Source: Acidobacteriaceae bacterium (GTDB taxonomy: Bacteria > Acidobacteriota > Terriglobia > Terriglobales > Acidobacteriaceae). From it: a stretch of DNA of 64,000 nucleotides. The notes under the pieces were generated by a model. The model worked only from the letters and a program-made list of their open reading frames with translations. It had not been told where the DNA came from and ran no database searches. The stretch covers positions 1-64,000 of the forward strand of contig JAJPKO010000053.1 of assembly GCA_021323655.1 (NCBI GenBank), given 5' to 3'. The number at the start of each line of letters is the position of its first letter. The first letter of the stretch is position 1. The translations under genes were made by a program, and so were the position numbers. Of this stretch, positions 56,663 through 58,263 are shown one piece after another.

Positions 56663-56947
56663 ATGGCAAAAGCAGTCTGGAATGGAAAAGTACTTGCTGA
56701 AAGTGAGACTTACGAGATGGTTGAAGGAAACATCTACTTTCCTGAGAACACCGTGAACCGCGAGTTCCTGCGCCCCAGCTCCACCACTTCAACCTGCCCC
56801 TGGAAGGGCCTCGCCCGCTACTACAGCATCGTGGTAGACGGCCAGGAAAACCAGGACGCGGCATGGTATTACCCCGATCCGAAGCCCGCCGCCCGCAAAA
56901 TCAGAAACCACATTGCCTTCTGGCGCGGCGTGGAAGTCGAAAAGTAA
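56663..56947 (+). CDS. DUF427 domain protein
   Basis: 94 residues from the ATG at 56663 (MAKAVWNGKVLAES). The short beta-rich domain carries the DUF427 blocks GNIYFPENTVNREFLRPSSTTSTCPWKG and AWYYPDPKPAARKIRNHIAFW. The family is widespread and uncharacterised. The frame is open upstream to 56546 but passes through a palindromic repeat, so the ATG at 56663 is preferred. It stands between repeats and the low-GC region. Confidence 0.85.
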   Translation: MAKAVWNGKVLAESETYEMVEGNIYFPENTVNREFLRPSSTTSTCPWKGLARYYSIVVDGQENQDAAWYYPDPKPAARKIRNHIAFWRGVEVEK

Positions 56948-56996
56948 TCCCGAAGGGAGGATCACCCTAAAGGCGCATAAAAACCGCCCCGGACGC

Positions 56997-57017
56997 CCAC
57001 ATCTCGAAGAGATGTGG
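56997..57017. repeat. Palindromic intergenic repeat, CCACRTCTC type (copy 2)
   Basis: A perfect 9-bp stem: CCACATCTC, three-base loop GAA, GAGATGTGG. It resembles the hairpin at 20322-20347 (one base change per arm). It lies 50 bases after the DUF427 gene. Confidence 0.6.
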
Positions 57018-57165
57018 AAATTTGCAGGACTTAAACCACTCCCCGTGTGGCCTCCCTCCTTTGCCCGCCCGGGGACCCCAAAACGCGCGATTTCTGCGTT
57101 TTGCGGTGGGCAGCAAAGGTTGGGGAAGGCAGAATCCAGGACGTTGTAACAGCCACCTGTTCTCC

Positions 57166-57186
57166 GCATCATATACGCATCATATA
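57166..57186. repeat. Tandem GCATCATATA pair, 11-bp period
   Basis: GCATCATATA occurs at 57166-57175 and 57177-57186, separated by one base. A period of one helical turn suits a protein-binding site for a dimer or tandem regulator. Confidence 0.5.
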
Positions 57187-57291
57187 TTCGTTCCAACAAA
57201 GATCTGCCGGAATTTAGCACTGAAAATGCTATCCTGAAAATAGGGAAAGAATTTGCTCGTACTCAGCCGGTACAAGTCTCGGCCTTCTAAC

Positions 57292-57670
57292 CCCTTATCC
57301 TACAGTACTTTACAGCAAGATCTAAATGTAAATATAGTATTTTCAATACTTTAGAATGTAGGCTTGAATGCTTTTAGCATGTATGCCTTATGGAATCAAG
57401 ACTTTGCTGAATATCGGGGAGGTGGGTACAACACTGGGATCGAATAAATGTGTCACGCACGGTTGATCTAAGTCCTGAAGGATTGAAATCATCTGGACTT
57501 TGCGCAGGAAAAGAAATAAGCCCTTTTGCTGGAAGACTTTACAGCCGCCAAAAAGAATAATCTTAATGTTTTCTAGACTTTAGCGGATTGCAGCCAAGAG
57601 CGTCCGGACGTAAACTCTGTAAGGACAAGACTTTAGCTGATGTACGAGAGGTGGTACAAGACCGGACGGG
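57292..57670 (+). repeat. Diverged duplicated element, two copies 229 bp apart
   Basis: Copy 1 is about 57292-57441 and copy 2 about 57521-57670. Conserved blocks keep their order and spacing in both: CCCTT, ACTTTACAGC, ACTTTAG 41 bases later, CAAGACTTT 53 bases later, then GCTGA and GAGGTGG(G)TACAA. Sequence between the blocks is not conserved. Copy 2 ends in a small hairpin (CCGGA/TCCGG, 57662-57678) followed by T-rich sequence. This pattern fits a structured RNA or a protein-bound DNA element better than a gene. Confidence 0.6.
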
Positions 57671-57785
57671 CCTTCCGGGGTTTTCCTTTCTACCCTTTCG
57701 CTTTGCTAGAGTTTTCCTGGGCATCTGCCGTGCATGGCCGGAAACGCGCAGGGCGGATTTGTCACTAATGTGCAGGAGAAAAGAA

Positions 57786-57869
57786 GTGAGAGTTTTCCGG
57801 CACATCCTTCTAGCATGGGCCACCGTCATCATGCCCGTTTTTATTTCATGGATGGTTCGTTTTTTCTAG
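57786..57869 (+). CDS. Possible 27-residue single-span membrane peptide
   Basis: A GTG at 57786 follows AGGAGAAAAGAA, a good ribosome site at usual distance, and opens a 27-codon frame with a hydrophobic stretch (HILLAWATVIMPVFISWMV) and basic ends. Its last 29 bases overlap the hspR 3' end in antisense. The size and layout match small membrane proteins, but chance is possible. I know no homologue. Confidence 0.25.
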   Translation: MRVFRHILLAWATVIMPVFISWMVRFF

Positions 57870-58263
57870 ATTTCCCCCTGGACTGAGGAACAATTACAGG
57901 ACGCCGCAGCGGCACAATGGCTGCTTCCTGCTGGGGAAAGCCCTGCTGCATCCGGCTCAGCATCTCGGTCCGGACGTAGTCCACAAAGCTCTGCATCTGC
58001 CGGTTCATCTCCTCCATGCGCTCTCGCATCTGGAGAATAATGGCGATGCCGGCGATGTTTACGCCGAGGTCGCGGGCAAGATTCAGAATGAACTCCAGCC
58101 GTTCGAGGTCTTCATCCGTGTAGAGACGGGTGTTCCCTTCCGTCCGCGAAGGTTTCAACAGCCCCTCGCGCTCGTAGAGTCGCAGCGTTTGCGGATGAAT
58201 GCCATACATCTCAGCCACCGCCGAGATCATATAAGCGCCTTTTGACTTGCGTTTGGTTGGCAT
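57841..58263 (-). CDS. hspR: MerR-family heat-shock repressor HspR-like
   Basis: 140 residues. The N-terminal MerR helix-turn-helix reads MISAVAEMYGIHPQTLRLYEREGLLKPSRTEGNTRLYTDEDLERL, and the following helix (FILNLARDLGVNIAGIAIILQMRERMEEM) is the HspR-type dimer arm. HspR represses chaperone operons through HAIR palindromes, with DnaK as co-repressor. Its place in the same operon as dnaJ supports this role. No full HAIR palindrome is visible upstream of the operon; a half-site ACTCAA lies at 59989-59994. Confidence 0.9.
   Translation of the reverse strand: MPTKRKSKGAYMISAVAEMYGIHPQTLRLYEREGLLKPSRTEGNTRLYTDEDLERLEFILNLARDLGVNIAGIAIILQMRERMEEMNRQMQSFVDYVRTEMLSRMQQGFPQQEAAIVPLRRPVIVPQSRGKSRKNEPSMK

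Follow-up and report, generated by a model that had tools for sequence, protein, structure and literature searches.

The closest described counterparts of the element treated here are small interspersed repeats, of which BOX, RUP, and SPRITE are described in the part of PMC3049150 that was available. Like the present family, the BOX elements of the pneumococcus are small, modular, and interspersed, with boxes A, B, and C and a suspected effect on the neighboring genes (PMC3049150). According to the same part of this source, BOX possesses IS-like terminal inverted repeats, which were not seen in the present module, and 60.8% of its copies occupy the leading strand, in contrast to the present family with its G-strand mostly on the C-rich strand; both are set apart by description and not by sequence. 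Spacing classes about one helical turn apart, a feature of the present family, were not met in this portion of the BOX description. PMC3733652 reports acidobacterial Y1 transposase genes, among others from Granulicella mallensis and Koribacter, and one repeat family tied to a Koribacter gene. The REP elements with their RAYT or TIRYT genes (PMC3733652) are similar in being dispersed extragenic repeats, and some Y1 genes were near elements here. As described there, however, REPs are palindromes of 20 to 40 bp with a GTAG or CGTC tag, while the present module is not palindromic as a whole, and Y1 genes with the module on either side were not observed. On reading of the module alignments, a short palindrome with a GTAG or CGTC tag, as in REP and REPIN, was not found.

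Correia elements of Neisseria are intergenic repeats with promoters and in this resemble the present module with its promoter-like pair, but terminal inverted repeats were not seen in the latter. DNA uptake sequences exist as species dialects of a short word; the present family also has dialects, but far fewer copies and a longer conserved module. The RNAs Acido-1 and Acido-Lenti-1, listed in the available part of PMC2864571, are acidobacterial noncoding sequences like the present element, and the T-box shares the word GGTGGTAC with it, but an Rfam match to any of them was not obtained. In the accessible portion of PMC5900883, the word “repeat” occurred only in the references, and a description of this element family was not found in the open-access literature searched. 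The module is best classed with the small interspersed repeats, as a variant with boxes that probably bind a protein.

The locus was analyzed within a window of 64,000 nt, the whole stretch of DNA under study. A first-pass annotation had pointed to two similar stretches 229 bp apart with short blocks in the same order and at the same spacing, separated by freely drifting sequence, and all of this was confirmed. The ungapped self-match optimum between positions 56950 and 57839 was at 57288-57425, with a lag of 229 and a score of 26.4, which was reached by none of 300 dinucleotide shuffles (top score, 16.2). Direct reading placed the block ACTTTACAGC at 57307 in copy 1 and 57536 in copy 2, ACTTTAG at 57348 and 57577, which is +41 from ACTTTACAGC in both copies, and CAAGACTTT at 57397 and 57626, with its ACTTT at +53. 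Next come GCTGA, shifted by one base in copy 2, and GAGGTGG(G)TACAA. In an ungapped comparison over a larger frame, 94 of 230 positions agreed. The box spacings within each copy were 41 and 53, and the window spacings relied on below are those of 41, 53, and 94 inside the copies only. An additional box of the same kind, GGACTTTGCG, sits between the copies with AAGTCC before it (Table 1) and looks by eye like the portion of the family module that contains AAGTCC and box C. The layout in the window is a single promoter-like pair and a weak hairpin followed by two tandem box sets with one extra box between them, in an AT-rich stretch (GC content of 0.38 at 57200-57499 vs mostly 0.53 to 0.62 further out).

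Table 1. Features of the element in the window, with boxes and blocks by position
Feature	Position	Strand	Description
Promoter-like pair P1	57207..57235	+	CCGGAA 57207-57212, 17-nt spacer, TATCCT 57230-57235; direct reading
Weak GCCG/CGGC stem, only 4 pairs	57266..57283	+	Stands where relatives have a terminator-like hairpin
Copy 1 of box module	57288..57445	+	TACTTT/GACTTT boxes 57306, 57347, 57400; G-rich block 57416-57426
Extra AAGTCC + box between copies	57466..57515	+	Core 57496, GGACTTTGCGCAGGAAAA; direct reading
Copy 2 of box module	57517..57673	+	Boxes 57535, 57576, 57629; G-rich block 57646-57654
Small hairpin with T-containing tail, after copy 2	57662..57678	+	Terminator-like site scan

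The promoter-like pair P1 was absent from the results of a sigma-70 consensus scan of the window. Two proposals for this region were revised. The stretch 57268-57290, suspected to be a third, partial copy, occupies the site of the terminator-like hairpin in relatives and is read as a weak remnant of this hairpin, and the terminal hairpin with a T-rich tail after copy 2 was at chance level, since two such sites were found vs 1.5 expected from shuffles. The left neighbor of the locus is a DUF427 gene on the plus strand that ends at 56947, the right neighbor a MerR-family gene on the minus strand that is taken to be hspR; two genes beyond it there is a dnaJ gene. The gap between the DUF427 gene and hspR is about 890 nt, and the copies are about 180 nt or more away from the hspR stop. 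In G001, the congener of the window genome, the interval between these two genes measures about 180 nt and contains no such element, and a comparison of orthologous hspR loci of relatives had the same outcome for G001. At 57052-57122, immediately 5′ of the element, there is a large imperfect palindrome, CCTTTGCCCGCC...GGTGGGCAGCAAAGG, with a REP-like look, for which Rfam gave sub-threshold microRNA matches only, and a direct repeat of 30 nt (73%) is located between copy 2 and the end of hspR at 57708-57737 and 57789-57818.

In BLAST searches with the window stretch, relatives, phages, and plasmids gave either no match or short, chance-like ones (a single one for phages, E of 0.3), the module of a relative had no match in plasmids and phages, and a pattern built from the two window copies recovered just those two in 200 family genomes. 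A first, sequence-only profile built from both copies detected weak relatives at two further sites in the same genome and full-length ones in genome G080. None of 23 viral contigs matched it at an E value of up to 10, and these contigs were taken as chance. A second profile, R2, was built from nine sequences and used at an E value of up to 1, with at most 150 candidates scored per genome; near an E value of 1, about one match per genome would arise by chance. G080 had 102 matches, G286 had 122, the genome of the window had 23, and the congener G001 had 7, while six other family genomes had none; at an E value of up to 0.01, there were 62 in G335 and 50 in G325. In the window, R2 matched copy 1 at 57300-57432 (74.5 bits, E of 3.7e-22) and copy 2 at 57528-57659 (70.9 bits, E of 4.9e-21), both copies being among its nine source sequences. 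With 7 to 122 matches in the six matching genomes, the copy number agrees with the tens to hundreds that characterize BOX-like families, G001 being low with only 7. It varies strongly within a genus: in G131, the element was not found, although G080 of the same genus has 102 matches.

Of 348 family genomes, 48 contained a strict pattern, and two genera accounted for 32 of these 48, with a maximum of 34 copies in G286 and 29 in G080, while a backward-read control pattern gave nine hits over all 348 genomes and none in these two. A stricter pattern hit eight contigs in a collection of about 85,000 species; seven were, by their titles, from Acidobacteriaceae (Granulicella sp. L46, Edaphobacter aggregans with two contigs, KBS 146, KBS 89, and two MAGs), and the eighth was a bacterial MAG. 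Such patterns are blind to other box forms, and the set of 89 loci used in the following, selected by the strict pattern, is biased to one box form and few genomes; moreover, L142 and L190 in this set are apparently one locus under two sources. The best reading of the window copies, judged by their sequence, is that of a tandem pair belonging to a dispersed intergenic family in Acidobacteriaceae.

The fullest module is about 250 to 300 bp long and starts with a left box, TGTCAAG, followed by a promoter-like pair and a stretch ending in a terminator-like hairpin. Its right part contains up to three forward boxes, which are variants of AAGACTTTGC, and an inverted half-box AAGTCC, and it ends with a G-tract, GGGGGAGGGGG, usually near a gene start or stop. 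An alignment of 19 of the 21 modules of G325, the other two being left out with no box recognized, revealed by reading TGTCAAG in 17, TGGCGGT in 18, and a recognizable box A in 13 of these 19, and AAGTCC, box C, and the G-tract in nearly all of them. Most had a GC-rich hairpin preceded by a TAAAAT-like hexamer, and neither terminal inverted repeats nor target duplications were visible by eye in any of the 19. Among the 89 loci, a strict terminator-like hairpin was located 5′ of box C in 28 vs 1.8 expected from shuffles, with a TANNNT hexamer just upstream in 27 of these 28 compared to 13% of random windows. Among 22 further loci from the window genome and its congener, 9 had a CCGGAA-like plus TATNCT-like pair before the boxes vs 39 of 1,760 random windows, a comparison that is not independent because the search word was written from those same 22 loci.

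The box itself occurs in genome-typical forms or “dialects.” The form AATACTTTGC was found in 11 of 11 cases in G286, CGGACTTTGC in 7 of 8 in G316, and AAGACTTTGC in 10 of 11 in G325; by eye, the form was AAGAATTT in G001 and AAGATTTTGC at one locus of G041. The forms were mixed, 6 to 5, in G339, and that of G080 was predetermined by the search word. A co-evolving protein or a lineage-specific spread would both explain these dialects.

Upstream boxes clustered at −42, −53, −71/−73, −84, and −94 from box C (53 boxes; four more at −9 were beyond the range tested for periodicity), and the best period in a scan from 5 to 20 bp was 10.3 bp with a Rayleigh z of 28.8. A looser box definition resulted in a z of 24.2 at 10.2 bp (n = 72), and 37 distinct genome/offset pairs in a z of 20 to 21. 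With each distinct offset counted once, the highest z was 8.3, and the value at 10.5 bp was 6.1. A recognized upstream box was present in just 36 of the 89 elements, and the signal came largely from two spacers, A-B with 29 to 31 or 41 and B-C with 42 or 53, which makes the number of independent observations smaller than n. The alternative lengths of these spacers differ by about one helical turn. The phase signal was strong at the loci of the copy-rich genera and weak within the genus of the window genome (V-test P of 0.014 to 0.03, n = 25, including double counts of some overlapping matches); in G000, the spacings were 29, 40, and 69 to 71.

As in BOX-like families, the modular elements were intergenic. 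None of the 89 loci was wholly within a called gene and 5 overlapped one at the right end, as judged by simple purpose-made callers for genes and flank proteins; with an earlier, cruder caller, 2 of 28 elements were overlapped by a called gene. The right gap was smaller than the left one in 64 of 82 cases, with medians of 30 vs 196.5 nt. Of the 88 elements with a called right-hand gene, this gene was in forward direction in 54 and reverse in 34, and 23 of the 34 convergent genes stopped within 12 nt of the pattern end, while some G-tracts were immediately 5′ of a start codon.

The orientation of the modules was compared with the local GC skew, which was calculated as the mean of the three nearest among 20 samples per genome. 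The sample comprised 53 of the 122 matches in G286, 61 of the 62 in G335, and 37 of the 50 in G325 (one contig), with one overlapping match removed in each of the latter two genomes. The G-strand was on the locally G-rich strand in 16 of 53 cases in G286 (P = 0.005), 23 of 61 in G335 (P = 0.07), and 7 of 37 in G325 (P = 0.0002), which amounts to 46 of 151 on the G-rich and 105 of 151 on the C-rich strand (P = 1.8e-6). The skew was kept as a proxy for replication because it did not follow the coding strand (correlations of 0.15, −0.01, and −0.08); dnaA was close to the skew minimum in G286, with a poorer fit in G335 and G325. The leading strand is usually G-rich. On this background, and with the position of dnaA in G286 only, the modules are read as oriented against replication, because the G-strand is mostly on the C-rich strand and the skew is independent of the coding strand. 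The KOPS word, GGGNAGGG, is contained in the G-tract of the present element, but KOPS, a G-rich word of the leading strand, was rejected by the opposite orientation, since only those 46 of 151 G-tracts were on the locally G-rich strand.

In the first-pass annotation, conserved islands with fixed spacing had been taken as a sign of selection on structure or binding rather than coding. The part of this proposal concerning regulatory or binding DNA stood, since the blocks recur at fixed spacing at many loci of related genomes while the spacers drift, even though the element is missing at this locus in G001. A decaying, functionless tandem duplication is hardly credible with this recurrence and with the 41 and 53 spacings kept in both copies, despite the divergence of the copies and the empty locus in the congener. 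The structured-RNA part fared differently. A structured cis-regulatory RNA transcribed from P1, such as an attenuator, a riboswitch, or a T-box-like leader, would agree with the hairpin at 28 of 89 loci and its upstream TANNNT hexamer, and with the G-tract often being just 5′ of a start codon. In 10 of 11 loci of G325, moreover, the terminator-like hairpin had two-sided changes at 4 of its 10 pairs; the box stem of the same 10 modules had none. Rfam gave sub-threshold microRNA matches only for the window stretch with gathering and relaxed thresholds, no match to Acido-1 or Acido-Lenti-1 (RF01686 and RF01687) in the window, no match at an E value of up to 1 for eight loci of relatives, and no T-box match at the gathering threshold in the whole window or at an E value of up to 5 in 56900-57900, which left the T-box lead unsupported. 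A consensus fold of the box region, which took in 36 of the 89 loci, contained AAGTC with GACTT as the sole stem, with a 24-nt loop and −0.55 kcal/mol. Two-sided changes were confined to one pair in three sequences, all from G286; the covariation score was matched by only 3 of 500 shuffles, and the change fits both half-sites of a putative protein site as well as a stem. Given this near absence of covariation in the boxes, and with 34 of 88 elements directed into the 3′ end of a gene, the evidence does not support a structured RNA or T-box, which must be considered very unlikely.

The remaining alternatives concern how the copies came to their places. Among 81 elements compared, the closest pairs within a genome were 74 to 80% alike over about 180 to 265 nt, hairpin included, at unrelated loci, and near-identical copies were not among them; this suggests an old spread and not recent jumping, as far as can be judged from sequence similarity. 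Empty sites with clear edges were not seen. Movement as a nonautonomous single-strand transposon by a Y1/HUH (RAYT-type) transposase, with the boxes as recognition sites and without a host function, would explain the 105 of 151 G-strands off the G-rich strand, as predicted for lagging-strand insertion. Y1_Tnp genes numbered 0 to 3 matches per genome, and in 7 of 14 Y1_Tnp windows of element-bearing genomes, an element was downstream on the same strand within 2.3 kb, a rule that had been noticed before the counting. Two of these seven are, however, one orthologous locus, called genes intervene in five of the seven, and the other windows comprise one with a differently arranged element and six without any. 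Y1_Tnp genes are also present in G131 and G063, where the element was not found and all four windows were empty. The link between the element and Y1 transposase genes is suggestive, but with neither terminal inverted repeats nor recent copies seen, a Y1-driven transposon devoid of host function is quite improbable. The modules could alternatively be purely cis-regulatory, as operator arrays of one global regulator that were selected gene by gene and never mobile, their likeness reflecting a shared function. Conserved boxes with drifting spacers would be expected from this, as would the excess of forward-forward (29) over reverse-reverse (10) gene orders (P = 0.003). Four homologous forward right-hand genes (72 to 83% identical; by reading alone mnmA, a gamma-glutamyltransferase, serA, and an amidohydrolase) bear the element in two species, with a different left neighbor in three pairs and none called on one side in the fourth, and one more pair, of MAGs, has a reverse right-hand gene in common. 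Against operator arrays, 34 of 88 elements face a gene 3′ end, whole modules including the hairpin are alike at unrelated loci of one genome, and most flanking genes are not common to several species, with 14 small clusters found in the 171 flank proteins, some shared genes having the element on another side. A regulon of the same genes in all species was not supported, and operator arrays as a whole appear unlikely.

The reading favored here, with modest confidence, is that of a new family of interspersed intergenic DNA modules, the boxes of which would be bound by a putative protein on one side of the helix. This protein would recognize DNA sequence-specifically, probably as a dimer or an oligomer, and may form with the boxes a nucleoprotein patch at the gene border that could insulate or tune transcription there. 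The modules would once have spread in each genome and later drifted except in the boxes. A more far-reaching version, in which the polar gene-border modules found genome-wide would be an insulator or chromosome-organizing element of an undescribed kind, with its own promoter-terminator, helically spaced dialect boxes, a G-tract anchor, a co-evolving putative protein, and anti-replication orientation, is conceivable but doubtful. If the favored reading is right, some members of a common family of soil bacteria hold a hundred or more copies of an unnamed module, the box of which may serve as a handle for fishing out a putative abundant DNA-binding protein. The family would also allow the interplay of gene borders, replication direction, and repeat spread to be tested in a phylum with few genetic tools, and it cautions that conserved islands with fixed spacing in such genomes can be DNA sites and not RNA.

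Some individual loci had features of their own. At L369 and L372, a Y1 transposase gene is near an ffh-like gene in two species with the element downstream, the transposase gene being apparently stable at an orthologous site. Upstream of several G325 modules (L161 to L164, L168, L169, and L275), there is a second repeat, GGCCGGAGTGAAGCCC...GGGCGAAACGACCC, perhaps a separate REP-type family. At L072 (G000:C5:34589-34758), degenerate boxes form a string that runs nearly up to the start codon of a gene with a product beginning with MAHINSF.
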